DNA from: Paramylibacter kogurei
Lineage (GTDB): Bacteria; Pseudomonadota; Alphaproteobacteria; Rhodobacterales; Rhodobacteraceae
NCBI RefSeq assembly: GCF_002742285.1
Contig: NZ_MDGM01000007.1
Coordinates: 62,001 to 126,000, forward strand
Length of the DNA stretch: 64,000 nucleotides
Direction: 5' to 3'
Shown: positions 8,603 through 44,078 of the stretch, in pieces
Numbering within the stretch: the first letter of the stretch is position 1
Layout of the letters: each line of letters starts with the position of its first letter
Notes under the pieces: model-generated
What the model was told of the DNA's origin: nothing
What the model saw: the letters and a program-made list of their open reading frames with translations, nothing else
The model's database searches: none
Translations under genes and position numbers: made by a program

Positions 8603-11600
8603 TTACCCAATCACCTGATCGCCCAAATCCAAACCGATGATCAATGGATCATGATCCGATGCGGCAAACACATCATCGCTATAAAACGCCGGATTGTTAA
8701 AGCTGGTGTCATAATTCAACAAATCGGGTTCATCAGCATTGATATGCCATTCGGTAATTCCTGTGACCTGATCCGCCATAGTATTGGATGCGAATGCTTG
8801 ATCCAGCGTTCCGCGTTGGCCGTCAAACACATAGCTATATGCGTCTTCTTGCCCAATGAATTGATCAATCAAATCGGCCAGCCCGGCTTGGTCACGCACA
8901 GCTTGAACGGGGTCTTCCATACCATAGGCGTTAAAATCACCCAGTATCAGGTAATCACCATCCGCACTGGTTCCAGCGTATGAATTTTCCATCCAATTCA
9001 CAACTTCGTTGGCAGCATCCGTTCGCACCCCGTTCCAGAAACCTTGTCCATCCCCCTGATCAAAGTTTGGATCCGCATAAAGCGCGTTCAATGCATCTGT
9101 AACTGCGTCAATCTGATCTGCGGGAATTGTTCCCGCATCAAGTGCCGATTGAACCGCATCGGCCAAATCTTGCAGACCACTATCACCTTTGGATTTGAAA
9201 TGTGTGCTGACAATTGTGAATGTTTCACCTGTTAGATTATCGGTGAATGTTGCTGCAACCGCGGGTCGGTTTCGTTGTAAATCATCCAGTTGATCCGACG
9301 GGGAAACGTATTGGTTCAAGAATTCGGCCAACGCGTATGTGGCAGCGGCAGAATCTTCGCTAAATTCCAGATAATCTGATGTGACCAGCGTCACCGCATT
9401 GCTGTCATAAACAATTCCTGTCGTGATTGCATCATCTCCAAGGAAACCGTCCACCGATCCATTGGTGGGATCAACAAATGCAAAAATGGCATCCGAGCCT
9501 GTTGCACTCGCTTCGATATTCAATTCATCAACCAAAGTTGAAATAGCCGAATTCGTATCGAACCCATTGTTTTCCAATTCTTGCAATGCAAACACTTCGG
9601 CACCTGTCGTGCTCATTGCATTCACAATATTCTCGGATTGGCGATCGAATTCTTCTTGGTTTGAAGCGCCACGCGGGGACAAGTTATTCGGCCCTGATCC
9701 GCCTTCGCCAGTGAATGTTGTGAAATAGTTCAACACATTGAAACTCGCCACTTGGATATTGCCGCCGACATCATCAGGGGTTTCTTGTCGTGCGCCCGTA
9801 TTAGTATCCTCGTCAATGCTCAATGTGCCATTCACCAACATGCGATAATCACCAAAGCCGAACGTCATCACGCCTTCAACTGGTTCGTTGATTTCGGATC
9901 CTAATCGAATGGTGGAACTGCCAGCGTCGAATGTATCACCACTATCCAAATATCCATTTCCATTATCGCCAGTGGTATTGGGAATATATGTAAACTCATC
10001 GGGATTTTGTCCCGATACACCATCGTCAATTAGCAATGAATTATTGGCATTTTCTTCCTGAAGCTGCGCAATTTCATCCGCTTGGGTTTGCGCATCATAT
10101 ATTTGCGTTGGCTGTGTTTGCACACCTGCGCTGATGGTGATTTCACCAAAGCGATCAAGGTTAAAGTTTTCGATAACCGTCAATGCTTCGCCATTGCCGC
10201 TGGTCACAGAAACATGCATGCCTTCGACCGCTTCGAAATTGGAAGCACTTCCCGACAATTGAATCTGTGCGGCGGTGGGGATTGTATTGTCACTTGAAAG
10301 CACGATTGTGCTGGTCACGTTAGTAAGTTCGGTCAGGCCGTTAAATTCAGTGACCGTACCAATGGTTTCCACCAAATCACCCGTTTCGACAAGTGGCGCG
10401 CCACCTGTGTAGATGAACAATCCTTCAGACGTATTTAAATCACCGTCTGCATCCGCATCTTCTTCTTGCACATAAAATCCGTCGCTGACGACATAGGTCA
10501 CAACTGCCGAGACCAAAACATATTCCCCAACCATAAAGCTGGCGTCACCGGAACCCTGAATTGATGAAATAAGGGTTGCTTCTGTTGGTTCTGGGTTAAT
10601 CACATCTCCCGCTGTTGGGGTATAGGTGGAGCTATCGGAAAAGCTGGTGATTTCAAATTCACCGATGCTTTCGGGATCGCGCACCGCACCTGCGGGTAAA
10701 AACGTGCCATCGGGGCCAACCACATTGTCGGAATAGACCAGATCGCCATCGCTTTCTACCAATGCAACGGAATCAACAATGTTGGTGAAAGGTTGACTAT
10801 CCAGTGTACCATCATCATCCACATCCAAATCACCCGAATTGGTTACGCCATCATACCCTTCGACCAACAGAAAACTGGATGGTTCGTTGTTCAGCGTATT
10901 ATTCGCAAATGTAATATTTCCCGTTACGCCAAATGTAGTTTCAGCCTGTTCGCTCGCCGCCAAGAAATATCCATTTTCACCAATGCTTTGCCCATCAAGG
11001 TTTATGACACTGATAATTTCACCTGATGCATCCAGTTGAAGCATTGCAAACCCATCAAGCGACAATCCCGCATCACCCGTTAATTCAACAAATTCCCAAT
11101 CAGTGCCCGATGTACTGACGGCCAATTCATTAATCACCACAGCAGGTGCCGATGTGCCCGCATTATCGCCACCTTGGGTATTGGCGCGTGGTGCATCCCA
11201 TGTACCGTCTTCATTGCGTTGCAGTGAATCACCAATGGCTGTGTCGCTTGGTTCTGATTGCCCAATATCGGTGGATGTCATGCCGTCAGCGGTGCCACCA
11301 ACGGCCGTGAGCGTTCCCTCGTAACTGATAAATTCAATCACTTCGCCAGCATTTGACAATGCGATTCCATCGGGTGATCCATTTTGAATGCCACCCGCAT
11401 CCCAAATATAATAATCGTATGTCCCATCTGTGATTATGGTCAGATCAGAAACCTGAACCGTTTGATATACCGTACCGTTTGATCCGTTGTACAATTCAAC
11501 CACAAGGGCGGAAACATCATCCCCGGCATTGGTGCGAATTTCGAAAAATTCGCCCTCATCCGCACCCACATTGTCGTAATGGATTTCGTTAACGCGAGCA

Positions 11601-29542: not shown

Positions 29543-29810
29543 ATTGATATCCTTGTTGAAATTACATCACTTTTCATAAGATGAATTCCACAAATGGTAA
29601 AATCAATTTGCGACACGAAGTAGCAGAAAAATCTTGTTTTCGTTTTCCCGAAACTGCGTTTTTGAAAACGAAAGCCAAATCATCTGCAATCCGAATTGCA
29701 TTAGCATTTTAACATGCTGGTGAATAACCCTGTTTAGCCCTAGCTATATTTTTTCCGGGGAACCTAGCCCTGAAAATCAAAGCAATTTCAAGAACAATGG
29801 TTATAGGATA
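29543..29810. other. Intergenic region left of the integrated elements
   Basis: No gene is seen between the soeA start and the first tRNA fragment. TTTCGTTTTC (29638-29647) and GAAAACGAAA (29664-29673) form a perfect ten-base inverted repeat about 100 bases upstream of soeA and could be an operator for it. This is the chromosomal flank next to the left attachment site. Confidence 0.4.
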
Positions 29811-29853
29811 TGGTGCCCACACGGACTCGAACCGCGGACCTACTGATTACAAA
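29811..29853 (-). repeat. Left attachment site of E1: 3' half of tRNA-Thr
   Basis: Copy of the tRNA-Thr 3' half, from CCA to the anticodon loop, differing from the intact gene only by a two-base loss in the run of C. Sequence diverges immediately after ATTACAAA. It is the scar of integration into the tRNA gene now found at 44003-44078. Confidence 0.88.
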
Positions 29854-29931
29854 GCTCAATTTGGCGTTTTTTAAGCAATTGAAATTTAACCAATTTTCGT
29901 GTTAACTGATTGTAATAAAACATTTAATCAG

Positions 29932-29958
29932 GACACCGAAAGACAGGTTGAGACAGCC
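29932..29958. repeat. GACA iterons left of E1 integrase (arm-type site candidate)
   Basis: GACA recurs three times at exact ten-base steps (GACA-N6-GACA-N6-GACA), one per helical turn. A second copy of the 27-base block, matching at 21 of 27 positions, lies immediately after the integrase stop codon at 31145. The layout suits integrase arm or Xis binding. Confidence 0.5.
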
Positions 29959-29959
29959 A

Positions 29960-31144
29960 ATGACACGGACATACAACGATTCTGCTGACACTACACGGAC
30001 ACGAAACGGCGCTGTCCGCCTCACTGATAATTTGGTAAAGGGTCTTAAACCTCCGCTTAAAGGGAACAAGATTACCTATGATGAACGCCTACGCGGGTTT
30101 GGTGTTCGGGTCATGGCTTCGGGTAAAAAATCATTCATCCTGAATTATCGCATCAATGGACGCGAGCGGCGCATGACGATTGGCGCGTATCCAGAATGGA
30201 CATTGCTCGCAGCGCGTCGACGTGGCGAAGAATTGCGCCGCGATGTTGATCTCGATATCGACCCATTGCAACGGCGCACTGACAAGATGAACGCGCCAAC
30301 GGTGCAAGACCTCTATGATCGTTACGTTACAGATCACCTCCCCAAGAAGTCCGAGTCATCGGTGGTGAGTGATTTGCAGATGTGGAAAAAGAACATCCTT
30401 CCCGTTCTAGCTCGGCGCAAGCTCTCAGATGTGAGTTTCGATGAGATTGACGCGCTCCATCGGAAAATCACGCGCCGCGCTCCCATTCAGGCGAACCGCA
30501 ATATTTCTCTGTTGCGCAAAGCGTTCAATCTGGCGATGCGGTGGGGCTGGATGAAAGCGAACCCAGCTGTTGGCATCGAAGCAAATCCAGAGGTTAGCCG
30601 CACGCGCTACCTGAGCGACTCTGAATTGAAACGGTTGATCCATGCGCTAAAAACCAGCGCAAGCCGCACGTCCTGCGATGCAATCTTATTCATGCTGCTG
30701 ACGGGCTGTCGGCGCGGCGAAGCATTTCAAGCAACTTGGGAACAGTTTAACGAGGAGTTACGCATCTGGACGAAACCAGCGGCAACAACCAAACAACGCA
30801 AGTTACACCGCGTGCCAGTATCGAGCGCCGTGACCGAATTACTTAAATCGCGCCAAGATCGCAGCACTTCACCTTTCATTTTTGCATCACATACAGGCAA
30901 GGCGCTGACTGATGTTAAAAAGACGTGGAACAGAATTTGTGAAACGGCTGAACTGGAAGACATGCGGCTACACGATCTGCGCCACACATTCGCAAGCCTT
31001 CTCGTTTCAAACGGTCAATCGCTGCCAACAATCGGGGCAATGTTAGGGCATACACAAACGCAAACCACGGCAAGATACGCACATTTATTCGATGAAACCT
31101 TGAGCGAAGCTGCGGAAATTGCGTCATCGGCAATATATAATTGA
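29960..31144 (+). CDS. int: Tyrosine-family integrase of E1 (P4-like, DUF4102 N-terminus)
   Basis: Site-specific recombinase of 394 residues that inserts E1 into the tRNA-Thr gene. The N-terminal DUF4102-like arm-binding domain (LRGFGVRVMASGKKSFILNY) is followed by the core-binding and catalytic domains. Catalytic residues are visible: Arg in LLTGCRRGE, His-x-x-Arg in LHDLRHTFAS, His in LGHTQTQ and the Tyr nucleophile in TARYAHL. Start 29960 (ATG) is preferred over a TTG four codons earlier. The gene is the first in the element, as is usual for tRNA-targeting islands. Confidence 0.92.
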   Translation: MTRTYNDSADTTRTRNGAVRLTDNLVKGLKPPLKGNKITYDERLRGFGVRVMASGKKSFILNYRINGRERRMTIGAYPEWTLLAARRRGEELRRDVDLDIDPLQRRTDKMNAPTVQDLYDRYVTDHLPKKSESSVVSDLQMWKKNILPVLARRKLSDVSFDEIDALHRKITRRAPIQANRNISLLRKAFNLAMRWGWMKANPAVGIEANPEVSRTRYLSDSELKRLIHALKTSASRTSCDAILFMLLTGCRRGEAFQATWEQFNEELRIWTKPAATTKQRKLHRVPVSSAVTELLKSRQDRSTSPFIFASHTGKALTDVKKTWNRICETAELEDMRLHDLRHTFASLLVSNGQSLPTIGAMLGHTQTQTTARYAHLFDETLSEAAEIASSAIYN

Positions 31145-31443
31145 GACATTGAAAGACAAATTGAGACAAGCATTGCCAACACAAAATAAGTTGTTGACTC
31201 AAAAAACGCTTTGATCAATTTTATGACCAAGCCTCAGAGATATATATAAAATAAGCCAGCAACATATTTAGCGCATCCGAAATGATAGAGACCAGAAAAA
31301 CTGGCTCAGATAGAAAATAAGCGCACAACAAACAAGCGGCACAAATCAAACTGAAAAGAGAGCTGACCATGAACCCCTCACATCAATAGTGTGGTGTCGA
31401 ATGCCTTGGGTGTTTGATACCACCTTCACTCAAAGGTATTATT
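31145..31443. other. Intergenic leader between E1 int and alpA
   Basis: AT-rich, without a recognisable gene. It opens with the second GACA iteron block (31145-31171). Near its end a six-codon frame with AGAGAG upstream (31369-31389, MNPSHQ) is followed by an 11-pair hairpin with two wobble pairs (31391-31401 with 31413-31423), just before the AlpA-like gene. This could be a regulatory leader. Confidence 0.35.
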
Positions 31444-31650
31444 ATGAACAACTCTCAAGAGTTGGACGAATTCATGTCCAAACCTCAAGCAGCCGCATAT
31501 CTCAACCTGAGCACGCGCACCCTTGATCGCCGCCATGCAGAAGGTATCGGCCCAAGACGTATCAAGCACGGTAGCAAAATCGGCTACTTCAAAAGCTCTC
31601 TCAATGAATGGTTAAAAGGCTTTGAACAAGCTCCCGTTCGATATGGCTAA
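31444..31650 (+). CDS. AlpA/excisionase-like small DNA-binding protein of E1
   Basis: Protein of 68 residues with a MerR/AlpA-type HTH (KPQAAAYLNLSTRTLDRRHAEG, wing IGPRRIKHGSKIGYFKSSLNEWL). Such proteins activate excision or control the integrase. The start at 31444 is chosen for fit to the family. Its counterpart in E2 is a 75-residue protein at the same place between integrase and initiator. Confidence 0.8.
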   Translation: MNNSQELDEFMSKPQAAAYLNLSTRTLDRRHAEGIGPRRIKHGSKIGYFKSSLNEWLKGFEQAPVRYG

Positions 31651-31722
31651 AATCGATTGGCGCGTGCGGCGATGCCCGCCAGGGCAATGCGCTGTGCGCG
31701 TCTGTCGCAATTAGCTTCCTAC

Positions 31723-31745
31723 GGGGGGTCTTTGTAGCACCCCCC
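31723..31745 (+). other. Conserved G6T/AC6 hairpin before rep of E1 (candidate origin)
   Basis: GGGGGGT (31723-31729), a nine-base loop containing TTGTAGC, then ACCCCCC (31739-31745). The same stem, loop length and loop core occur before the E2 initiator at 39529-39551. No T-run follows, so it is not a typical terminator. Position 36 bases upstream of a Rep_trans-like gene suggests a nicking origin; this is inference. Confidence 0.6.
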
Positions 31746-31780
31746 TCTACAAATACATAACAACACGACAAGGATAAAAA

Positions 31781-32920
31781 ATGTTAGTAATTTATTCGGG
31801 TTTTGACGGATTAGATATATCCATCAAAGCACAAATCTCTGAAGAATTTGATGAACAACTCGCCGAGGCAAAAGCCCTAGCTAAAATATGGAATAGCGAA
31901 GCGTTATTACCCATCGGTAAAGAACGTTTACAAGTCTTTGAATCTGGATCGCGGGGCGGATATGCCTACACCTGTGATCTGAGTGGTAGTGGAACAAAGT
32001 GGTTTATCAAAAGCCCCAATAAAAATGATCCTTGGGGTATCCGTGTTTCTGTTGCCTCATCTCAACTGGCACTTCATGGCCTTGAAGGCACGCGAAAATA
32101 TATTGAAGAAACATTGAAACTTTTCGGTGTTGAATTGGACGAAAATGCCATCAGCATAACACGGGTAGATTTTGCGGTGGATATTCTTGCACCTCATCTC
32201 GCTATTGATCGTCAAAATATTGTCACACATGCACGCAGCAATATTACAGAACGCGATGTGGCGACAAGTGGTCATTCTTCGCGTGTGACATCAATAACAG
32301 TCGGGAAAATGCCAAGCCGTCAATTTATCATCTATGACAAACGTGAAGAGGTGATGGTTAAGCATAAAGGACACTGGCTCAGAATTTGGAACAACAGCCT
32401 CGAAAAAATGGGATTGCCCCCTTTAGACTTTTCCAATCCAAAAGCATCCCGCATCTGGCGCATAGAAGCGCGGGCGGGAAAAAAACACCTCCAAGAAAAA
32501 TGGGGTATTCGTAGTTGGAATTCGCTTTATGAAAAGCTTCCAGAACTGATGGCAGATGCGTTTGAAAAGGTTCGATATTGCGAGCAAACCACCGATACCA
32601 ATCGCGCTCGCTGGCCTTCCCACCCGATTTGGGACTTGGCGAAAGGAACTGTGACAACCAGATTAACCGAATTTGAGCCATTAATCACGCAAAGTGAATT
32701 TCAAGAAATATCCAAGCATGAGCGCATTGGCATTCTGGAAAAACAAGCCCTAGGGCTGGCCGTCAGCTTGGCAGCCATACATCAGATTGAAAGCAGAGAG
32801 TTTCCCGATTTTTTATATGCGCTAGCTCGTCAGATGGACGCGAATTCGCAAGATCATTACGTGCCTATTGAAGATCGATTACAAAAGGCTCGTGATCGGT
32901 ATGTGCAGTTTCAGATGTAA
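31781..32920 (+). CDS. Replication initiator-like protein of E1 (Rep_trans/RstA-type)
   Basis: Protein of 379 residues clearly homologous to the E2 protein at 39579-40814 (shared GFDxLxxxI start, KxPWGIRxS, WRxExRAGK and RARWPxHxxW blocks). TRVDFAVDIL (Arg128, Asp130, Asp134) and FIIYDKREE (Tyr185, Lys187) resemble motifs of rolling-circle replication initiators of the Rep_trans/phage RstA group. It probably nicks the hairpin just upstream to start autonomous replication after excision. AAGGA precedes the ATG. The family link is from motif resemblance only. Confidence 0.65.
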   Translation: MLVIYSGFDGLDISIKAQISEEFDEQLAEAKALAKIWNSEALLPIGKERLQVFESGSRGGYAYTCDLSGSGTKWFIKSPNKNDPWGIRVSVASSQLALHGLEGTRKYIEETLKLFGVELDENAISITRVDFAVDILAPHLAIDRQNIVTHARSNITERDVATSGHSSRVTSITVGKMPSRQFIIYDKREEVMVKHKGHWLRIWNNSLEKMGLPPLDFSNPKASRIWRIEARAGKKHLQEKWGIRSWNSLYEKLPELMADAFEKVRYCEQTTDTNRARWPSHPIWDLAKGTVTTRLTEFEPLITQSEFQEISKHERIGILEKQALGLAVSLAAIHQIESREFPDFLYALARQMDANSQDHYVPIEDRLQKARDRYVQFQM

Positions 32921-33016
32921 TTTCGAGACTCGGCCCAAAGCCGCCGTTCGTGGATTACGCAGAGAATGTCAACTTTGAGCCCTTATGCGACGTACAGATT
33001 TCAAAACTGACGGCAT

Positions 33017-33041
33017 AAAAAAGCCCTGAGCGGACTTTTCT
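33017..33041. terminator. Terminator between E1 rep and the convergent defence genes
   Basis: AAAGCCC (33020-33026) and GGACTTT (33032-33038) form a stem with a five-base loop. A's lie on the left and T's on the right, so it can end the minus-strand defence operon and the plus-strand rep transcript. Confidence 0.65.
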
Positions 33042-33134
33042 TGCATTTGCAGATGCTGAAATTCCAGTCCTCTTCAAGCGGCCAGGTTTCAAACGAAGCT
33101 AAAGGACAAACGGAAGGCAATGCTTACCAAAAAA

Positions 33135-34034
33135 TTAGGCGGCTTCAGCATCACGCATACTCCGAGTGTCTTGTAGGACTATGAAGCCGGTTGCTTTCTC
33201 CCAAAACCGTATGTGCGCATAGGAATGTGTTGCGCGAAACATGTCAATTGCGTACGAAAGCCTGAGAATCTTTGCGAGAGTTTCGTTGCCCTCTTTGCTA
33301 TTGAATTCATTCGTGCTTCCTAATCTATTTCGTAGCGACTTAGATAAGACTGCCACACAGTCGTGCCCGTTCGAAAGCACCCAAGATGAGTATCTTTCAA
33401 GGTTCTCCGTTATCGCCTTTTTTGCTTGCGCTTCAGTTGGCGAAGATGCTTTCGAGGAACGAGAAAGCACGTGTTTTGACGTTTTGTCGGGGCATATTTC
33501 CGGAGAATTCGGTGCCACAAACTTGTAGGCCATTTCTGAGAAATACAACCCCCAACTGTTGACGGTTGATGCAAGACGCAGTGCACCCGTTGGTGCCGCC
33601 CAAGCGGCAATTGTTTCGTGAGGGTCAACACATGGATCACCCATTACCGAAGCCACTTTGCCCATACTTCCAAATTCATTTAAAATGTTGATTAAAACCT
33701 GAGAACTAAGAATCTGCGCTTCAAGATCATTTTCATCCGTAAATACAACATTGCCATGATATTCAGGGTAACCAATAAGGTCTGAAAAATCTCGATCAGC
33801 GAATGCCAGTACTCCGTCGACAAGGCTGGATTCGAGTTTGGAAATTGCACCAAAAAGCCTATCTTTTCCCAAACAAACAACAACTGAGCAGTCGGGTTCA
33901 CTAGTAAAGCGTTTGAGAACTCGTGCGTCGGATGAGCCTTCAACCAACAAGAAAGACTTGCCAGACTCTGCTCGCAGCATTCTGATTTCATTGTATATTG
34001 TATCAATAGATACTTCCTTCTCGACGCTATTCAT
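33135..34034 (-). CDS. DUF4435/TOPRIM-type effector, PARIS AriB-like
   Basis: Protein of 299 residues with TOPRIM-like features: Glu32 in LLVEGSSDARVL and the acidic pair in AFADRDFSD (Asp80, Asp82), then a helical C-terminal half. DUF4435 proteins next to an AAA ATPase form the PARIS anti-phage system, in which the AriB nuclease is released when phage anti-restriction proteins are sensed and then cleaves host tRNA. Start 34034 lies one base after the ATPase stop, so translation is coupled; a start 14 codons earlier is possible. Gabija- or OLD-like pairs are alternatives, but those usually fuse or differ in domain order. Confidence 0.68.
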   Translation of the reverse strand: MNSVEKEVSIDTIYNEIRMLRAESGKSFLLVEGSSDARVLKRFTSEPDCSVVVCLGKDRLFGAISKLESSLVDGVLAFADRDFSDLIGYPEYHGNVVFTDENDLEAQILSSQVLINILNEFGSMGKVASVMGDPCVDPHETIAAWAAPTGALRLASTVNSWGLYFSEMAYKFVAPNSPEICPDKTSKHVLSRSSKASSPTEAQAKKAITENLERYSSWVLSNGHDCVAVLSKSLRNRLGSTNEFNSKEGNETLAKILRLSYAIDMFRATHSYAHIRFWEKATGFIVLQDTRSMRDAEAA

Positions 34035-34035
34035 C

Positions 34036-35388
34036 TTAGTCTCGAGACAGTTCTTGCACCAAATCCCAGTTGTCATGGATGATCTGGGGCGAATGCGTGG
34101 CGATCACAACCGACAAATGACGCAAACTCTGAATTTTGAGAAGATCAGATATGAAACGCTTTTGCCAAGCTACATGAAGCGAGAGTTCCGGTTCATCAAT
34201 TAAAATCAACGCACCTTCCTTGACCTTGAATAGCAACTCGTAAACTAGCACTAATTCATGTTGCTCACCTGATGAAAGCTCGGCAAGAGGAATCTGCTCA
34301 CCAGTATCGCTATCTACAATTATGATACCATTCTCGGAACTTATCCTAACTTCTTTGAAAGTGAAATATTCGTCCAATATCTCTTTAAAAAGTCGAATCC
34401 TATCGTAAATATCTGAAAACACTGAAAGCTTCGTTTGGGTGTCATCGGCATAAATTGATAGAATTCTACGAACGTTGTCTTCTTCAAAGATCTGACTGGG
34501 TTGAATTGGCTCAGAAACTGCTTCATCAATTATCCCGACATCTACAAGAGACTGTCGACTTGCGCTCAGTTCCAGAAGACGTTCTCTGATGTCACTCTCT
34601 GTCGAGGCAGCGCTTCCATGGCTCTCGATAATCCTTTTAGGGAAGGTCTGATCTAGCTTTTGTGACTCATTTGCATATTGTTGCAGAACTCGATTGATCT
34701 TCTCGGCCAAATCCGATGCATCTTTTTCTACAACGGAGTCCGGCTTTACTGGACGACTATGTCGTGGTAAATGCCGGCTGTGGCTTTCTTCCAGCGCCAA
34801 CAACCGCTGCGTTTCAATCAAACTTACTTGGTGCTCTTGCGTTATTTCTTGGAGCCATATTGGCATATCGATGCTTTTTGTTAATTCTTCCGGTAGTTGT
34901 TCGACGTATCTGGCCACCAATTCCGATGTGCTCAAAATTTCCTCTGATGGGAAGTCAATCCATCGATCAGCTCCCACGCGATCAACCGGAAGACTTCTTT
35001 CAAGGTAAGAGTAGCTAGAGCGAGGAATCTTTGGCTTCAGTGCGTATGGTTCCTCACAATTTTCGAACCCCTCACCTTTAACATAGACGATGCTGCTTTC
35101 AGTACTGTCGTCTTCAAAGAGGGTTCCAAATTCCTTGTAAATCGAAATACGTTGGCCATTTTCAAATTTGAATATTATTTCCGAAAACATTGTTCTCCAA
35201 AAGAAGCTAAACTTGCGATTGAAAAAAGCGTCGACGGCTCTCAGGACGGCGGTTTTGCCAAAACCGTTGGGAGCCGTGACTATCGTTAGTAAGTCATTTT
35301 TTTGGAGCACGATCTCGTGGTTAAACCGCTTGAATAGTCCTCTGATCTTCACACTCGAAATCTGGTTTGTTTGCATAGAGTCTGTCAT
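34036..35388 (-). CDS. AAA ATPase with ABC-like head, PARIS AriA-like
   Basis: ATPase of 450 residues: Walker A APNGFGKT (39-46), a central helical and coiled-coil-like region (about 190-300), signature LSSGEQ (371-376), Walker B ILIDEPE (about 395-401) and a final ATHSP switch motif. This is the AAA_15/AAA_21 overcoming-lysogeny-like class. In PARIS the ATPase binds the phage trigger protein and holds AriB in check. It is the first gene of a two-gene operon transcribed against the element's core genes. Assignment rests on domain pairing with the DUF4435 neighbour. Confidence 0.7.
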   Translation of the reverse strand: MTDSMQTNQISSVKIRGLFKRFNHEIVLQKNDLLTIVTAPNGFGKTAVLRAVDAFFNRKFSFFWRTMFSEIIFKFENGQRISIYKEFGTLFEDDSTESSIVYVKGEGFENCEEPYALKPKIPRSSYSYLERSLPVDRVGADRWIDFPSEEILSTSELVARYVEQLPEELTKSIDMPIWLQEITQEHQVSLIETQRLLALEESHSRHLPRHSRPVKPDSVVEKDASDLAEKINRVLQQYANESQKLDQTFPKRIIESHGSAASTESDIRERLLELSASRQSLVDVGIIDEAVSEPIQPSQIFEEDNVRRILSIYADDTQTKLSVFSDIYDRIRLFKEILDEYFTFKEVRISSENGIIIVDSDTGEQIPLAELSSGEQHELVLVYELLFKVKEGALILIDEPELSLHVAWQKRFISDLLKIQSLRHLSVVIATHSPQIIHDNWDLVQELSRD

Positions 35389-35419
35389 TCTTAACTTTTC
35401 TATTAGTTATTCAGATCGT

Positions 35420-35451
35420 CTCAAAAAATGAGCATCGCGCTCAAAAATGAG
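35420..35451. promoter_or_regulatory. Twin CTCAAAAATGAG boxes upstream of the ATPase gene
   Basis: Two near-identical boxes start 20 bases apart, 32-63 bases upstream of the ATPase start. Each is an inverted repeat (CTCA and TGAG arms). They look like a repressor or activator site controlling the defence pair. Confidence 0.4.
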
Positions 35452-35834
35452 AATGGGCGCCTTTAGATTTGTTGGTTCGCAAGTTGGCGTTTATTTGCCC
35501 CTTGGTCAACACACATATTAAATCGGTCGTGCGAACTTGCGTGAACGTATTCGTCGCTACGTTTGCTATTTTATAAACGTTGCGGCTCCTTTAGCACCCT
35601 CAACGAATGACCGCTACCCACCCCGTTCAGGTCATTCGTCAGTTTGGTCGAAACGGTCACTATATCTCTATAGCAGACCTCGGCGCAAATCGCAGCGAAT
35701 GTCGGCAATCCGCCCATAGCCATTTGGCTAAGTACAAAATTGTTTATTTACTTAGTCGATCTCAGAATCAAACTGAGCGGGATTTATCTTTCGTGATCAA
35801 CGAAAAACAACAAATTTAACAAAAATAAAGTTTT

Positions 35835-35854
35835 CGGACACTGCGCGGACACTG
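35835..35854. repeat. Arm-type repeats at right end of E1
   Basis: CGGACACTG occurs twice, 11 bases apart. Related GGACA(C/T) words occur at the left end of E1 (29932, 29965 and 29997 areas). The layout mirrors the paired GCTTCCG repeats of E2. Confidence 0.45.
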
Positions 35855-35897
35855 ATTGAGCGCAACTCAAGAGGGAAATTTCACCTTACCTCAACTC

Positions 35898-35964
35898 ATT
35901 GATATTTAAGTGAAAAATGGTGCCCCCACACGGACTCGAACCGCGGACCTACTGATTACAAATC
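35898..35964 (-). repeat. Middle attachment site (E1 right / E2 left)
   Basis: A 67-base exact copy of 43983-44049. It includes 20 bases beyond the tRNA 3' end plus the CCA-to-anticodon part of tRNA-Thr. It marks the joint between the two tandem elements. Confidence 0.9.
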
Positions 35965-36139: not shown

Positions 36140-37297
36140 ATGTCAAAACTTACAAAACGCCTTGTTGATAGTCTAGTCGCCGAACCCAAAGAACGCATTT
36201 ATTGGGACGACGAATTGGGCGGTTTTGGTATTCGGATTTATCCAACAGGGCGCAAAGTTTATATCGCTCAATATCGCGCCAACGGACGCACACGGCGCAA
36301 GAACATTGGGCAGCATGGTGTCATGACCGCCGAGGAAGCACGCAAAGAAGCCAAGTTTATTCATGCAGACGTTGCACGCGGTGCAGACCCCTCCGCCGAT
36401 CGCAAGGCACGATTGCGTAGCCCAACGGTAATGGAACTTGGTGAACGTTTTATTACCGATCATGTGCAGCTACATTTAAAACCCACGACGCAAACCGATT
36501 ACATCAACATGTTGCGCAAGAAAATTTACCCTGCTCTTGGTTCGATCAAAGTTTTTGAAATCACGTTTAATGACGTTGCCGCATTTCATCTGAAATTGCG
36601 AGATACGCCTTACCAAGCCAATCGTTGTGTCATGCTCATGTCCAAGATGTTTAATCTTGCCGAAGATTGGGGTTATCGCCCCATGAACACCAACCCGACA
36701 AAGCGGCTTAAGAAATATCCCGAAGCTGAAAAGAAGCGATACTTGGACGAAGTCGAACAAGAAAAACTTGGCGAAACAATGGCCCAGATGTTGACCGATG
36801 GAAAAATCAGTCGATACGTTTTTGCAGCTTTCTATTTACTACTTTTGACAGGTTGTCGATTGAGCGAAATTCAAAAACTGAAATGGGATTACGTCACGCG
36901 CACCCATTTGGAATTACCAGACAGTAAAACAGGCCGCCGCCGCATTCCCCTGCCCCGCGAAGCACGTCAATTGTTGGCGTCATTGGAACAGCGCGACGAT
37001 AATCCCTATGTAATTATCGGCGATCATGCGACGGGATATTACAATGATCTGCAAAAACCTTGGCGCAAAATTAGATCACGCGCTGGGTTGGAAGATGTAC
37101 GATTGCACGATCTGCGACACACCTATGCGTCAGTCGCGGTCATGAATGGAATTGACCCATTCATGTTGAAAGAAATCTTGGGGCATAAGAATTTGAGTAC
37201 AACTTTGCGCTATGCGCATTTGTCAGATGATGCAGTGCAAAAAGCGGCGGGGCAGATTGCGAATAGGTTATCCAACACATTGGGAAGACTTAACTAA
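36140..37297 (+). CDS. int: Tyrosine-family integrase of E2 (P4-like, DUF4102 N-terminus)
   Basis: Recombinase of 385 residues, same architecture as the E1 enzyme but clearly diverged. The DUF4102-like N-terminus (LGGFGIRIYPTGRKVYIAQY) precedes a catalytic domain with Arg in LLTGCRLSE, LHDLRHTYAS, LGHKNLST and the nucleophile Tyr in LRYAHLS. It lies 175 bases right of the middle attachment site, which it presumably recombines with the right-hand tRNA copy to excise E2. Confidence 0.93.
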   Translation: MSKLTKRLVDSLVAEPKERIYWDDELGGFGIRIYPTGRKVYIAQYRANGRTRRKNIGQHGVMTAEEARKEAKFIHADVARGADPSADRKARLRSPTVMELGERFITDHVQLHLKPTTQTDYINMLRKKIYPALGSIKVFEITFNDVAAFHLKLRDTPYQANRCVMLMSKMFNLAEDWGYRPMNTNPTKRLKKYPEAEKKRYLDEVEQEKLGETMAQMLTDGKISRYVFAAFYLLLLTGCRLSEIQKLKWDYVTRTHLELPDSKTGRRRIPLPREARQLLASLEQRDDNPYVIIGDHATGYYNDLQKPWRKIRSRAGLEDVRLHDLRHTYASVAVMNGIDPFMLKEILGHKNLSTTLRYAHLSDDAVQKAAGQIANRLSNTLGRLN

Positions 37298-37436
37298 ATC
37301 TAAAAAAGGCCGATGTAACGGTCTTGCTTTCTATAAGTATCGTATGTTTGCCTCGAACCAACTCAGATAGAATAACAAACTTTCTCTAACATTTCTTCGA
37401 ATTTCGCAAACTTGTTTCGTTGAGTTGGTACATGCT

Positions 37437-38537
37437 ATGCTGGATAAGATGAAAACTGCATATGTAATCAAATCGGCTGCCAAGGATGTAAGTTTTGACT
37501 GTGACCGCGTGAAGGGCTTAACTTTTATCACTTCGGTAATAGACGTGACCTATCTGAATAACGCTATTCTAGGATGCAATCTCAAATTATTAGTTCAACA
37601 AAAAATTGATGATGATAGAATTGAAAAACCGATTATTTGGTTTCTAATTTTTTCTGCGGAACCAATTTCTAATACGAATCTCGAAAAAGCGTGGAGATAT
37701 GCAATTAAAGTTGGGGCAACTTTAAATCAGTATACCCAACTCGGCCACAGCTTTTCCTACGAGAATTTCTGGGGGATTTCCGGTATTCCTGATGAATGGA
37801 ACCTAGCTGAAACACAGATAAAATTTTCAGACAACCAAGAATTTGAGGGCATATATTGGTACGATCCAAAAAAACCAACAAAGATTGAAAACGGTGAAGA
37901 ATTTGCCGAAGTTGAAATCAGACACCGACAGCGCGAAGTGCGCTTCACTACTGTAAGCCCAGAAGGCCTCACTTACAACCATTTTGCCCATGCATCAATT
38001 CCAGGGAAGGTAAATGTTGGTTCAAAGTTTTCTCAACGCAAAAATGTATTGGAAAAACTTGGTAAGAAAGGTTTTTCGCTCAAATGTGAAACATCCTATT
38101 ACCTATTATCACTCTACAATCGTGCAATCACGTCACATGATGTTTTTCATAGTAACAATACACTATTTCAGATGGTTGAAGTCATTATTGGCAGTGTAGA
38201 TGGCACCAAAATTTCACCTGAGGCAAAATCCAAACTTGCGGCGTTAATAGATTCCGATCCTGACTTGCACCCATTTTCTGACCGCATTGTTAATGCTATT
38301 GGCGGTATCCCAATTGAGACGTCCAAAGAACTCCTAAAAAGTGGTCTAATAAAGTTAGTAGGAAAAGAAGCCGCCGAAAATTTGGATTTTTCTGATTTTG
38401 GAAAATGGCGGAAACTGAGGGGTGCATTGACACATCCTAAAAAGGCACAAGCTTTGACAGATGTGGAATTTGTAGCCACCTACAATTCACTGAGGAACTT
38501 TTGTACCGCTTTGACAAAATGCGTCAATGAACTCTAA
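37437..38537 (+). CDS. Orphan protein with C-terminal HEPN-type Rx4H motif
   Basis: 366 residues, no family recognised. The N-terminal two thirds are mixed strand/helix (WFLIFSAEP; EGIYWYDPKKP; REVRFTTVSPEG). The C-terminal third is helical and contains FGKWRKLRGALTHPKK, where R328-GALT-H333 fits the Rx4-6H active site of HEPN ribonucleases, placed as in ApeA- and Abi-like defence proteins. It is AT-rich compared with the chromosome and sits as single-gene cargo behind the integrase. The start is uncertain (TTG 37425, ATG 37437 or 37449). A phage-defence toxin is the best guess, not a proven function. Confidence 0.6.
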   Translation: MLDKMKTAYVIKSAAKDVSFDCDRVKGLTFITSVIDVTYLNNAILGCNLKLLVQQKIDDDRIEKPIIWFLIFSAEPISNTNLEKAWRYAIKVGATLNQYTQLGHSFSYENFWGISGIPDEWNLAETQIKFSDNQEFEGIYWYDPKKPTKIENGEEFAEVEIRHRQREVRFTTVSPEGLTYNHFAHASIPGKVNVGSKFSQRKNVLEKLGKKGFSLKCETSYYLLSLYNRAITSHDVFHSNNTLFQMVEVIIGSVDGTKISPEAKSKLAALIDSDPDLHPFSDRIVNAIGGIPIETSKELLKSGLIKLVGKEAAENLDFSDFGKWRKLRGALTHPKKAQALTDVEFVATYNSLRNFCTALTKCVNEL

Positions 38538-39205: not shown

Positions 39206-39424
39206 ATGACTAAAACACCAATATACAAGTTCCGACTGGGGCTTATCACAGCGACAATCTGGGAAAACGACAATTTCTATTCTGTCGATATGACCCGCTC
39301 TTACAAAAACAGTGAAGGCCAATGGCAAAACACCACAAGCTATTCCCATGCTGACCTTTTGAACTTGGCTAAATGCGCCGAACGCGCTGAAAACTGGATC
39401 GCGAGAAAATCAAATGTATCTTAA
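39206..39424 (+). CDS. Small protein upstream of rep in E2
   Basis: 72 residues, MTKTPIYKFRLGLITATIW onward, with a helical C-terminus (LLNLAKCAERAENWIAR). A good AAGGGA ribosome site lies at 39194-39199. No family recognised with confidence. The start looks like a beta strand-rich single-domain protein, and its place just before the initiator hints at a replication accessory role. E1 has no counterpart. It partly overlaps an upstream extension of the rep reading frame. Confidence 0.6.
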   Translation: MTKTPIYKFRLGLITATIWENDNFYSVDMTRSYKNSEGQWQNTTSYSHADLLNLAKCAERAENWIARKSNVS

Positions 39425-39528
39425 TCAATCAACTTATTTGGCCCCTACTCGGCCCCAAAACATAAGCTGCCCTGCCAGCGGCACTTATGCGTTCAAATCT
39501 AACCCGACTGATACCGATAATTCGGTAA

Positions 39529-39551
39529 GGGGGGTGATTGTAGCACCCCCC
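39529..39551 (+). other. Conserved G6T/AC6 hairpin before rep of E2 (candidate origin)
   Basis: GGGGGGT (39529-39535), nine-base loop GATTGTAGC, ACCCCCC (39545-39551), then TCT and AAATACA. The E1 hairpin has the same stem, loop length, TTGTAGC loop end and AAATACA tail. It ends 27 bases before the conserved initiator start. Confidence 0.62.
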
Positions 39552-39578
39552 TCTGGAAATACACCTGACATTCCAAAC

Positions 39579-40814
39579 ATGACAATATTACACCAAGGCT
39601 TTGATACACTCGCCCTTGCGATTGAAGCAAACATTGGGCCAGAACTTCACGCCTATCTTGAAACTGAAAAGACACGCGCCGACAAAGAGCGGCGCGATGT
39701 TTTGATCAATTACAATGGCGTTGAAATGCTGCTTAAGCCACATGGCGGCAATGGGTATAGCTATATCGCCAGCGGCGGCCCAGATGGTGCGACATGGTTT
39801 TTCAAGAAACCCAATGCCAAAGACAAATGGGGCATTCGTTTATCCTTTGGTTCTTTCTTTATGGCGCTGCATGGCATTCACGCGGCAAAGGCACATTGTG
39901 AGCATGTCATGGAAAGACTGGGCATTCGATATGCCCCGCATCAAGTCAGCATTTCACGCATCGATTTTTGCATAGATATTCTGGCAAAAAATTTCACTCT
40001 AATTCCCGAAAATTTCGTGATGCACAGTTCAACTGGTCGACGCGATCATATCACCGCCGACGATGTGTCTGTGAACGGAAAATCAGGACGGACAACATCC
40101 GTGACCGTTGGACAGAGTCGAAATCGACAAGTAATTATTTACGACAAAACGTCTGAGATTGCCGCGAAAGGCAAGTCACATTGGTGGCAAATCTGGCATC
40201 ACAATTTATATGAAAATCCATCTAATTGTACGAAATATGATGATATTAAAAGAAATTTTAAGTTTATGAAATCATCTGAAATGTTACGAAATTACATGAA
40301 AAATCATAAAAGTTCACGTATTTGGCGCACAGAGTTTCGCGCAGGCAAAGACCTACTTAAAGATCGCTGGGGCATTCGCACTTGGGAACAACTGTTCGAA
40401 AAATTTGGCGATCTGTGTCGCGAGATGGGAGCTGTCATTCGTTACACCGAGCCACAAGAGAACGACCCGAACCGCGCACGTTGGCCCAACCATCTGCTCT
40501 GGGAAATCGCCTGCGCAGAGATTAATCGCGATCTAATTAACATGCGAAGCGGTGCTGATCCAAATCCATTGAAAGAGGTTCACCGCGAACAACACATAAG
40601 TCTGATATTTCGTAATATTCTTGGATCAAGCATTGCACTTGCAGCATTGAAAGATGCGAATTTTGAAAATTTACCAAAGTGCTTTGATGAATTGGCAAAG
40701 GAGATGAACGAAACGGTCAGCGCAAATGCTGAGAAAACTAAGAAGCAATTAAGGGAAGCTGGGGAAAGGTATTTGTTTATATCTAAGTCAAGTCAGCCTA
40801 CGTATGAAAATTAG
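39579..40814 (+). CDS. Replication initiator-like protein of E2 (Rep_trans/RstA-type)
   Basis: 411 residues, homologous to the E1 initiator. SRIDFCIDIL and QVIIYDKTSE match the conserved acidic and Tyr-Lys motifs, and the RIWRTEFRAGKDLLKDRWGI and RARWPNHLLWEIA blocks align. Start 39579 is chosen because homology begins here (MTILHQGFDTL against MLVIYSGFDGL) and because the longer frame from 39414 would translate through the hairpin. The ribosome site is weak, so the longer form cannot be excluded. An AT-rich insert near residues 210-240 is absent from E1. Confidence 0.65.
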   Translation: MTILHQGFDTLALAIEANIGPELHAYLETEKTRADKERRDVLINYNGVEMLLKPHGGNGYSYIASGGPDGATWFFKKPNAKDKWGIRLSFGSFFMALHGIHAAKAHCEHVMERLGIRYAPHQVSISRIDFCIDILAKNFTLIPENFVMHSSTGRRDHITADDVSVNGKSGRTTSVTVGQSRNRQVIIYDKTSEIAAKGKSHWWQIWHHNLYENPSNCTKYDDIKRNFKFMKSSEMLRNYMKNHKSSRIWRTEFRAGKDLLKDRWGIRTWEQLFEKFGDLCREMGAVIRYTEPQENDPNRARWPNHLLWEIACAEINRDLINMRSGADPNPLKEVHREQHISLIFRNILGSSIALAALKDANFENLPKCFDELAKEMNETVSANAEKTKKQLREAGERYLFISKSSQPTYEN

Positions 40815-41028: not shown

Positions 41029-42870
41029 ATGCATTTTGAGACCGAGATTGTAGTAGACAAACCGACAGTAGCTCCACCAAAACTCACGATCTTCATGATT
41101 GGCGCTGACGAGTTCATGTTCTGCCCGGTTCGAGGCAAAATTTACAAGGTGAATGCGAAGCCTGAAGAAAAAGTCCGCCAATGGTGGATTTATCGCCTAC
41201 GCGACACTTATGGGTATGGCTTCAATCAACTGTCAGTAGAGGTTTCTGTAAAAGTTGGTTCCTCAGAGGCAAAGAAAAAAGCGGATATTGTTGTCTACGC
41301 CGATAAAACTAAACGCGTACCTCGAATATTTGTTGAGGTTAAGAAGCCAGATCGAAAAGACGGGCTGGATCAACTTCAAGTATACATGAACGCAACCGGG
41401 TGCCGCCTTGGGCTATGGAGTAACGGGTCACCACCTCACGTTTATCTCCTCAGAATGGAGCCAAAGGGTGGGGTGGAAGAAGCCAGCTGGCGAGAACTCA
41501 GAAACATTCCCGCCAGCGGCGAAAAAATTTCTGATGTTGATAGCCCAATTACGCGAGATCAGCTGGTCCCAGTCAAAGATTTCCTCGCAATTCTAAAGGA
41601 GTGCGAGGATCATATTAAGGCGCACGAGGGCGTGAATGTCTTCGAGGAAGTCTTCAAACTCATCTTTGCTAAACTCTACGACGAACGACGAAACCTAAAA
41701 AATGATAAGTCGCCTGCACAGTTCAGAGTAGGTGCTCTTGAAGCAGCGTCAGATGCTCGCGAAAGGGTCGTAAAGCTATTCAAAGATGCTAAGTCACAGT
41801 GGCAAGGGGTGTTCACAGCCGGAGAAGAGATTTCACTAAAGGACGACACGCTGGCATTTTGCGTATCCGCGCTTCAAAAAGCGTACCTTTTAAAATCTGA
41901 CGCTGATGTCCTTGGGTCTGCATTTGAGGTTATGATCAACCCAACCATGAAAGGTGATAAAGGACAGTACTTCACTCCGAGGCATGTCATTGATCTTTGC
42001 ACAGCGGTTTTAAAGCCAAAAGACAACGAAACCATTTTCGACCCTGCATGCGGAAGCGGCGGATTTCTTGTTTCAGCCATGGATCATGTTTTTGCGTCCA
42101 TAAGAGCAGAGCGTGACGATGAAAGTGAAATCCTTGAAAATCAGAAGGATTATGCTTCCAACAATGTATTTGGAATCGATTACGATCCGATTATTGCAAA
42201 AGTGGCCAAGGCCTACATGCTAATTTGGGGTGATGGCCGTTCAAACATATGTGTTGGAGACGGGTTGAACGAGGCAAACTGGAACGATGATATTCGTTCT
42301 AAGTTCTTAATCAAAATCGGGGGAAAACGTGTTCCTCGTAAGTTCGACATTATAGCGACTAACCCCCCATTTGCGGGCGATATTTCCGCAGAGGACACTT
42401 TGTCGAAGTACAGGGTAGCTTTCAAAACGGACAACAATGGTCGAACAAAGCGAAAAGGGAAGGTTGCACGTGACATCCTCTTTCTCGAACGCTGTTTAGA
42501 TTTTTTGGAGCCGGGAGGCCGGATGGCGATTGTTGTACCGAGAGGCTTTCTCAAGAATTACAACGATGAGCCTGTCAGGCAGTTTGTTTTGAAGCAGGCT
42601 CGCATGAGAGCTGTCGTTAGTTTGACCGGGAACATGTTCAAGCCATTCACGAACACCAAGACTTGTGTTGTCTTCCTGGAAAAAAGAGCATCTGAGCTAA
42701 AAGCCGTTAGTGAGGCTGTAGATGATCCGGATGTTGTTTATGCGGTGTCGGAGAACCCAGGGAAGGATAGAAGCGGTCGGTTGATCCGTGACTTGAATGG
42801 GGACATCGTTTCGGACCTTGGTGAGATTGCGGAATACCTCAACAAGAATTTACAGTGGGGGGAAACCTGA
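41029..42870 (+). CDS. Restriction nuclease - N6-adenine methyltransferase fusion
   Basis: 613 residues. An HsdR-N-like PD-(D/E)xK nuclease lies at the N-terminus: Asp86, Glu103-x-Lys105 in FVEVKK, and Q115xxxY119, all intact. A helical HsdM-like linker (about 180-310) and a gamma-type adenine methyltransferase follow, with DPACGSGGF (338-346) and NPPF (445-448). No helicase/translocase is present. Together with the separate specificity gene this resembles type IIB/IIG enzymes such as BcgI, where one chain cuts and methylates. GCGAGG precedes the start. Its stop overlaps the specificity gene start (TGATG). Confidence 0.82.
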   Translation: MHFETEIVVDKPTVAPPKLTIFMIGADEFMFCPVRGKIYKVNAKPEEKVRQWWIYRLRDTYGYGFNQLSVEVSVKVGSSEAKKKADIVVYADKTKRVPRIFVEVKKPDRKDGLDQLQVYMNATGCRLGLWSNGSPPHVYLLRMEPKGGVEEASWRELRNIPASGEKISDVDSPITRDQLVPVKDFLAILKECEDHIKAHEGVNVFEEVFKLIFAKLYDERRNLKNDKSPAQFRVGALEAASDARERVVKLFKDAKSQWQGVFTAGEEISLKDDTLAFCVSALQKAYLLKSDADVLGSAFEVMINPTMKGDKGQYFTPRHVIDLCTAVLKPKDNETIFDPACGSGGFLVSAMDHVFASIRAERDDESEILENQKDYASNNVFGIDYDPIIAKVAKAYMLIWGDGRSNICVGDGLNEANWNDDIRSKFLIKIGGKRVPRKFDIIATNPPFAGDISAEDTLSKYRVAFKTDNNGRTKRKGKVARDILFLERCLDFLEPGGRMAIVVPRGFLKNYNDEPVRQFVLKQARMRAVVSLTGNMFKPFTNTKTCVVFLEKRASELKAVSEAVDDPDVVYAVSENPGKDRSGRLIRDLNGDIVSDLGEIAEYLNKNLQWGET

Positions 42871-43634
42871 TGGCATTGCTGACGACGAGACCCTTTGCAG
42901 ATGTTTTTCTTGATCTCGATGGTGACAAGGACGCCAACCACATATTTGAACCTGAGTTCCATCAGGACGTGTATGTAAACGCCTGTAAAGAAGCGGAGAA
43001 AACGCCAGGAAGCTTTCAGCTTGGCGACCTCAGCAAGCTAGTACGATATCCCAATCGAGGCAGCCAACCGACATACTGTGATGATGAAAGTGACCCTGAA
43101 AGCCTAATTTATAGAGGGATGGTAAAAACAGACGGTGCTTCGGTTTCTGACAAAGAAACATCTAACGTTTGTGCTTTGAAGTCAGTTGCTATCCGTTGGG
43201 GGTTCGTGGATTTTGGCGTGGCCCGAGCGGTCGATGAAGAATTCTTCAAGAAAAAGAAACTTCGCAACGAGGCACAAAGCGGTGACGTTCTGATAAACTC
43301 AACAGGAGATGGTACAATCGGTCGGGTGGCTGTTTACAACAGGTCGCACCCTGCTCTGGTTGATGGGCATGTTACAATCGTTCGCTTCAAAGATAAGAAA
43401 CTTGCTTGGTATGCTGCTGCCTATCTTTTGAGTGACCAAGGACAGAAGCAGATCTACCGATATATCAACGGCTCTAGTGGTCAAGTTGAGATCTACCCTC
43501 AAGACATAGCACGCATATGGATACCGAATGGTGATGCTCAGAAGATTTCAGCTGTTGCTAAGCAATATGAGAGTGCAGCTCGAAAGTACGAGGAGTTTCA
43601 GGCTGAACTCAGTTCAGTGCTTTCAAAGGTTTAG
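42870..43634 (+). CDS. Half-size specificity subunit (HsdS-like)
   Basis: 254 residues with one target-recognition domain: GDVLINSTGDGTIGRVAVYN and VDGHVTIVRF are typical type I TRD signatures, and YINGSSGQVEIYPQDIARIWIP matches the TRD end. A C-terminal helix (AVAKQYESAARKYEEFQAEL) suits dimerisation. Standard HsdS has two TRDs in about 400 residues, so this subunit should work as a dimer and recognise a palindromic split site. Start 42870 overlaps the fusion gene stop with GGGGGA upstream. Confidence 0.83.
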   Translation: MALLTTRPFADVFLDLDGDKDANHIFEPEFHQDVYVNACKEAEKTPGSFQLGDLSKLVRYPNRGSQPTYCDDESDPESLIYRGMVKTDGASVSDKETSNVCALKSVAIRWGFVDFGVARAVDEEFFKKKKLRNEAQSGDVLINSTGDGTIGRVAVYNRSHPALVDGHVTIVRFKDKKLAWYAAAYLLSDQGQKQIYRYINGSSGQVEIYPQDIARIWIPNGDAQKISAVAKQYESAARKYEEFQAELSSVLSKV

Positions 43635-44002
43635 TAATTTTTTGGATTCGAATGACTTGTCTTGGTGCTACCGCAGCGAAAGTCCGCTTCCCGCCCATTT
43701 GAGACATTTTCGATCTCACTCAGGCTCAGTATCCACTTATCAAATTTTGCAATTCGCCAATATTACCGCCAATGGCGAGCACTCGTTCGGTTTGTTGTGT
43801 TTGCCGACATTTAACAACCAAACGAAATCCACAATGGGAATATTTGGCAATCACATTGGAATTAGATAAAAAACGATTCTGTTCCCTTTCCACAACAGTA
43901 CGATTTTAACATTTCACTGCTTCCGATATGCTTCCGAATCCAAAATCGCATATTTCGCCACGCAACGAAAATCTTGCAAGTTATTGATATTTAAGTGAAA
44001 AA
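43635..44002. other. Right end of E2, no gene
   Basis: About 370 bases without a credible gene. It contains the right copy of the 19-base arm repeat (43918-43936) and the 20 element-derived bases of the attachment repeat (43983-44002). Confidence 0.5.
43918..43936. repeat. E2 arm-type repeat, right copy
   Basis: TGCTTCCGATATGCTTCCG, identical to 36093-36111, in the same orientation and 46 bases from the right attachment core. Confidence 0.65.
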
Positions 44003-44078
44003 TGGTGCCCCCACACGGACTCGAACCGCGGACCTACTGATTACAAATCAGTTGCTCTACCAGCTGAGCTATAGGGGC
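44003..44078 (-). tRNA. tRNA-Thr (anticodon TGT)
   Basis: Read on the minus strand it folds as a full cloverleaf. The acceptor stem GCCCCTA pairs with TGGGGGC (one G-T pair), the discriminator is A and CCA is encoded. The anticodon stem is CTGAT/ATCAG with loop TTTGTAA, giving TGT (reads ACA). The T arm has GTTCGAGTC. Its 3' half is the integration target of both elements, and the 67-base repeat 43983-44049 ends in the anticodon stem. The gene is intact because each integration rebuilt its 3' end. Confidence 0.95.

Follow-up and report, generated by a model that had tools for sequence, protein, structure and literature searches.

A candidate two-gene Type IIB/IIG-like restriction system with a one-TRD specificity subunit in a tRNA-Thr element of Paramylibacter kogurei

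An integrative element and its gene pair

An 8.1-kb element of Paramylibacter kogurei carries a two-gene restriction system consisting of an RM gene and, downstream of it, a short S gene. Except where a locus (L002 and so on) is named, coordinates are positions in the window, the 64-kb stretch of contig NZ_MDGM01000007.1 (62,001-126,000 of the forward strand) that was analyzed. The element lies at a tRNA-Thr gene (tgt; minus strand, 44003-44078; ARAGORN), its integration site, and spans 8,085 bp between 73-bp direct repeats that are 97% identical; the right repeat (43977-44049) overlaps the tRNA gene and the left one (35892-35964) is a copy of its 3′ part, in agreement with the 8-kb element proposed by the sequence-only reading that preceded this work. 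The genes run in the order integrase, 370-aa protein, small ORF, Rep-like protein, RM, and S. The tyrosine integrase (36140-37297, plus strand) matches Phage_integrase (E 1.6e-21) and Arm-DNA-bind_3 (E 8.3e-16). The Rep-like protein (39414-40814, plus strand; its real start may be further in) is 34% identical to another Rep-like protein encoded at 31781-32920; its own match to Rep_trans reaches only E 0.05, that of the other protein is 3.1e-05, below the cut-off, and a scan of viral contigs with the Rep protein returned no relative. The 370-aa protein (37425-38537, plus strand) has no family match in Pfam, NCBIfam, or PADLOC and no plasmid match. Near its C-terminus stands the sequence RGALTH, an R-X4-H arrangement that we take to resemble the HEPN motif; the feature is suggestive of an HEPN nuclease, and this may perhaps be a second defense gene.

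RM (41029-42870, plus strand) encodes a subunit of 613 aa and S (42870-43634, plus strand) a subunit of 254 aa. The mechanically listed frame of S opens at a GTG at 42855, which the sequence-only reading had adopted; both of its ORFs exist, and it is this start that is probably wrong. We favor the ATG at 42870 as the true start because it shares one base with the RM stop codon (TGA, 42868-42870) and is preceded by GGGGGGAAA. The hsdM and hsdS genes of EcoKI likewise overlap by one base (PMC3510504). Scans for promoters and terminators gave no more matches than shuffled sequence.

A second integrative element (29783-35892) adjoins this one on the left, arranged in tandem at the shared tRNA-Thr repeat; its left repeat is 70% alike. 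It contains an integrase gene (29948-31144), the other Rep-like gene (31781-32920), and, on the minus strand (33135-35388), an AriB-like gene (E 3.4e-08) next to an AAA gene whose best PADLOC match is AriA (E 9.5e-25), with PtuA close behind (1.9e-22); judged by these matches, the two genes are like a PARIS pair. A hairpin of the form GGGGGG-loop-CCCCCC, its loop containing TTGTA, occurs near the start of all six Rep-like genes examined, at 31723-31745 and 39529-39551 of the window and, in same-genus genomes, at 10719, 8306, 5538, and 5991 of loci L062, L063, L064, and L065, respectively. The pattern is found nowhere else in the window, and the two window hairpins fold better than shuffled sequences (z -2.4, with 6 of 200 shuffles as good, and z -3.2, with none of 200). 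By inference, the hairpin may be a replication origin for Rep. The Rep-like genes of the same-genus genomes belong to the same family and have other neighbors: an integrase and Rep lie near tRNA-Lys or tRNA-Met in L063-L065, and L062 has a Rep that is 95% identical with different flanking genes. These observations suggest a family of small integrative elements whose cargo is exchangeable.

The RM and S subunits and their relatives

RM combines a nuclease, a helical region, and an adenine methyltransferase in a single chain. Pfam places HSDR_N_2 at residues 45-146 (41161-41466; E 8.4e-21) and N6_Mtase at residues 291-556 (41899-42696; E 2.3e-39), the latter with the motifs DPACGSGGF (338-346) and NPPF (445-448), and finds no helicase or translocase family in the protein. 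The presence of both domains argues that the HsdR-type nuclease motif named in the sequence-only reading is not a chance match; D86, E103, K105, Q115, and Y119 were found exactly where they had been placed, the PD-(D/E)XK catalytic residues D86, E103, and K105 being all present, and the fusion of nuclease to methylase without a translocase was borne out with them. The AlphaFold2 model of RM is of moderate quality (mean pLDDT 78.8, pTM 0.66, with blocks of pLDDT 46-58 at about residues 131-160). Its best whole-chain fold match is the RM subunit of the Type IIB enzyme BsaXI, which the predicted model matches over residues 1-611 (Foldseek E 1.3e-24); a VIA comparison gives Z 29.7 over 555 residues with an rmsd of 13.0, a value that probably reflects a different placement of domains.

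In the AlphaFold2 model of S (mean pLDDT 83.4), a single TRD is followed by one long helix at the C-terminus. In the PDB it is matched best by the second half alone of the S chain of PacII (residues 193-376; Z 17.9, rmsd 3.4, 178 residues, 20% identity), so that the half-size, one-TRD HsdS proposed earlier is what the model predicts. Also among its best PDB matches is Esub1 (about 196 residues, Z 15.9), a name that occurs in none of the papers listed by a literature search for it. PADLOC Specificity_I matches S (E 2.1e-25); no Pfam S-subunit family does so at E ≤ 1.

Relatives were sought by scanning genome contigs with six short peptide patterns, a procedure that finds close relatives only, and 10 loci were returned. 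Nine (L002-L010) are 63-75% identical to RM in the best segment, and in every one of them an S ORF of 258-269 aa directly follows RM. The named hosts are Tranquillimonas, Frateuria (L003), Bradyrhizobium, Aurantiacibacter (L006), and an acidobacterium; the metagenome-assembled ones are Devosia, Lachnospiraceae, Solidesulfovibrio, and Comamonas. Since these last four of the nine, including the sole member of the Bacillota, are metagenome assemblies, the spread across phyla rests partly on binning. In profile searches, S (E ≤ 1e-20) is matched in two of 398 genomes of the phylum, one being that of P. kogurei and the other very probably the Frateuria genome already counted, with the same genes, and RM (E ≤ 1e-100) is matched in three of 385 genomes of the class, the organism's own and two at 40-42% identity, where the S frames are at least 427 and at least 429 aa long (both cut by the locus end). 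Relatives of RM that go with two TRDs are 37-42% identical to it, and the best plasmid and phage relatives stay below 60%. A relative on a viral contig (L015) ends inside RM, and a further locus (L011, 36% identity) lies at a contig end and was excluded from comparisons. A relative on a Picosynechococcus plasmid (L036, 5881-9420) carries the annotation of one N-6 DNA methylase gene of 3,540 bp, about twice the length of RM, which suggests a fusion of RM to S.

RM is interrupted in three of the nine close relatives, and S is open in each: by a stop at residue 210 in L002 (4173-6005), by a stop at residue 115, the motif glutamine, in L004 (8001-9830), where the rest of the RM frame is open as well, and by a frameshift near residue 323 in L010 (8001-9807). 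Either decay or assembly error would account for these interruptions. In the seven intact copies D86, E103, Q115, and Y119 are invariant, as are the methyltransferase residues 338, 340, 342, and 445-448, and K105 is kept in six. The nuclease domain is the best-conserved segment of RM (mean pairwise identity 75% for residues 45-146, against 67% for 147-290, 68% for the methyltransferase at 291-556, and 44% for each end of the protein). In S, the conserved part is the TRD (residues 31-215, mean 62%, in the seven intact systems); the C-terminal helix (216-254) averages only 32%.

Class assignment, proposed mechanism, and alternatives

We think it likely that RM and S form a stand-alone, two-gene enzyme of the Type IIB/IIG kind, built from two RM and two S subunits, that methylates and cuts DNA at a symmetric split site. 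The kinship with these types is seen in the joining of a nuclease and a gamma-class adenine methyltransferase (NPPF) in one chain, and no helicase family was detected by Pfam among the six element proteins. By analogy with described enzymes, S, holding one TRD, would dimerize through its C-terminal helix, and two such S with two RM would assemble into a complex of two-fold symmetry on a palindromic split site, in which a few specific bases are followed, after a spacer, by their complement. Such a complex would methylate one adenine per strand and, where the site is unmethylated, cut at a short, fixed distance from it, with no need for ATP-driven translocation. The pair may be defense or self-maintenance cargo of the 8.1-kb element. 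The poor conservation of the C-terminal helix, the proposed dimer surface, counts against the dimer.

The sequence-only reading had drawn a parallel to BcgI. Its IIB/IIG part holds in sequence, fold, and relatives, but BcgI is not the closest parallel: BcgI and BsaXI likewise pair an RM fusion with a separate S, but their S has two TRDs and their subunits combine as 2RM:1S (PMC3874165 for BcgI; PMC11997821 for BsaXI, a Type IIB enzyme given as (RM)2S), and BsaXI RM, at 916 aa, has additional knob and paddle parts. We reject the BcgI-type arrangement on the one-TRD model of the 254-aa S. S.BcgI is taken as reading a single half-site in PMC4450513, which conflicts with the two-TRD organization described in PMC3874165; we follow the latter. 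A one-TRD RM+S organization is already known. The BcgI-like Type IIG enzyme HpyUM032XIII of Helicobacter pylori uses a fused RM with a one-TRD S1 to methylate CYAN7TRG (PMC4450513), though its half S is thought to have come from a two-TRD gene by frameshifting, S2 being retained downstream, whereas the short S of the present system recurs in all nine close relatives. BplI, a two-chain Type IIB enzyme with a proposed 1:1 ratio, recognizes the palindrome GAGN5CTC (PMC1892151); we liken it to the composition predicted here by its described ratio and site, not by sequence. The palindromic split site with nearby cutting that the sequence-only reading predicted is in line with these two enzymes. The 'Type 1 1/2' methyltransferases, such as M.AhdI (2M+2S), also have a separate single-TRD S (PMC3874165), and differ in that no nuclease is fused to the M subunit. 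According to PMC6158711, engineered half-S subunits dimerize and remain active, although a fusion of a nuclease to HsdM had not yet yielded an analogue of Type IIB enzymes with full activity. None of the entries in Table 4 of PMC3874165 is an RM that works with a separate S of one TRD, and in literature outside REBASE and subscription papers we found no description of this RM-S lineage or of a frozen one-TRD S.

Four other readings deserve consideration; they are not mutually exclusive. The pair could in practice be a methyltransferase, its nuclease vestigial or silent, that mainly marks DNA for regulation or for self-marking of the element. The L004 copy, with its stop at the motif glutamine ahead of an otherwise open RM frame and an open S, would fit this reading, as would L005, in which arginine replaces K105. 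Against it, the nuclease domain is the best-kept part of RM, and in a nine-row alignment that does not include L004 the residues D86, E103, Q115, and Y119 are invariant in every row and K105 in eight. We regard a silent nuclease as unlikely.

The best named NCBIfam family for RM is MAD2 (E 1.1e-105, residues 27-606 aligned), and S matches MAD5 (E 1.4e-08), so that the system could be a reduced relative of the methylation-associated defense systems (MADS) that needs further genes, for instance the HEPN-like 370-aa protein as effector. Yet both matches fall far under the family cut-offs (354 of 720 bits for MAD2 and 34 of 400 for MAD5), and no other MAD family occurs among the six element proteins; on these grounds membership in MADS was rejected. 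In the relatives, moreover, RM and S stand beside other genes: Pfam identifies resolvases (L010, L015), GmrSD (L010), RhuM (L007), DnaB-like and VapE-like genes (L008), and AAA_13 (L009). A dependence on additional MADS-like components is, in our judgment, improbable.

We are similarly doubtful that S acts without dimerizing, one RM and one S reading a short continuous or asymmetric site in the manner of a monomeric Type IIG enzyme. The single TRD and the weakly conserved helix are what such an enzyme might have, and MmeI-type enzymes work without a partner methyltransferase (PMC3874165). Monomers of the Eco57I, BpuSI, and BseRI types, however, bring extra methyltransferases (PMC3874165), and Pfam finds none among the six element proteins; furthermore, palindromic sites accompany the one-TRD S subunits of H. 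pylori, among them a Type I S that goes with RTAYN5RTAY (PMC3936762), as well as the 1:1 enzyme BplI.

Finally, the cut might be made by an HsdR borrowed from elsewhere. The genome (2,978,879 bases in 16 contigs) has, in profile searches, one HSDR_N_2 match, which is RM itself, three N6_Mtase matches, and one SWI2/SNF2 match. The last is an HsdR of 955 aa on another contig (C9), where it forms a separate Type I operon with an HsdM (518 aa) and an HsdS (403 aa). Since HSDR_N_2 misses this R subunit, a search with that family alone cannot exclude an HsdR; the genome-wide search for motors covered the SWI2/SNF2 family, and within that scope the HsdR that would have refuted the sequence-only reading did not turn up, the sole match belonging to its own M-S-R operon. 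An HsdR with a motor encoded alongside, the mark of a Type I system, was found neither in the element nor, as an HsdR or SNF2 family (Pfam, E ≤ 0.001), among the 20 neighboring ORFs of relatives that were scanned, out of 36 listed. That RM and S borrow the HsdR of the Type I system, the fused domain having another role, is very unlikely: this HsdR has its own M and S next to it on a different contig, and RM has a nuclease domain of its own.

A conserved specificity subunit

Returning to the two-gene enzyme that we favor, what appears new is that its S looks locked: the part that would read the target differs unusually little between bacteria that are only distantly related. Over 21 pairs from seven intact systems (leaving out L002, L004, and L010, with interrupted RM, and L015, at a contig end), RM is 65.1% identical (61-74) and S 54.8% (48-62). 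In a Type I control at nearly the same level of M identity (65.3%, 59-78; 36 pairs, nine systems), S is only 28.4% identical (22-32). For this control, nine plasmid loci were picked among the 50 listed of 348 plasmid records with a match; L026, with no S recognized beside M, and L030, where a short hypothetical gene and then an IS follow, were dropped, and the remaining seven, with L025 and the organism's own operon (L023), make up the nine systems. A first control set (seven systems, 21 pairs) gave 64.6% for M and 27.7% for S. Among two-TRD sister systems, three hand-picked examples (L013, L014, and one on a Klebsiella plasmid; in L013 and L014 the locus ends within the S frame), RM is 69-76% and S 21-23% identical. 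Within the family, RM and S identities rise together (r = 0.63, over 21 non-independent pairs). An S alignment of the family has 10 rows.

The simplest reading of this conservation is one kept recognition sequence without swapping of S, from which we infer that close members may have a recognition sequence in common, or nearly so; a conserved TRD does not prove that the motif is identical. As for the half-site itself, PacII S (20% identity) and the S matches on plasmids and phages (28-42%, mostly partial) are too distant, and we claim no motif. It is possible, though we would not call it probable, that these systems form an enduring lineage of Type IIB enzymes with one TRD, in which the recognition sequence is frozen, such that members in the Proteobacteria, the Solidesulfovibrio assembly, the acidobacterium, and the Lachnospiraceae assembly all write and cut one shared palindromic motif.

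The two elements at tRNA-Thr and their relatives in the genus illustrate small integrative elements whose cargo is exchangeable and partly defense-like, and the RM-S pair within one of them provides a compact enzyme of two genes for study. In both sets of controls used here, Type I and two-TRD, the divergence of S far exceeds that of M. A clade in which a single RM scaffold stays together with a single TRD would make it possible to test cleanly why specificity becomes frozen if one subunit, presumably homodimeric, reads both half-sites. If the shared motif is real, the cassette would be a portable, phylum-crossing DNA mark, the opposite of the rapid drift usual for S specificity.
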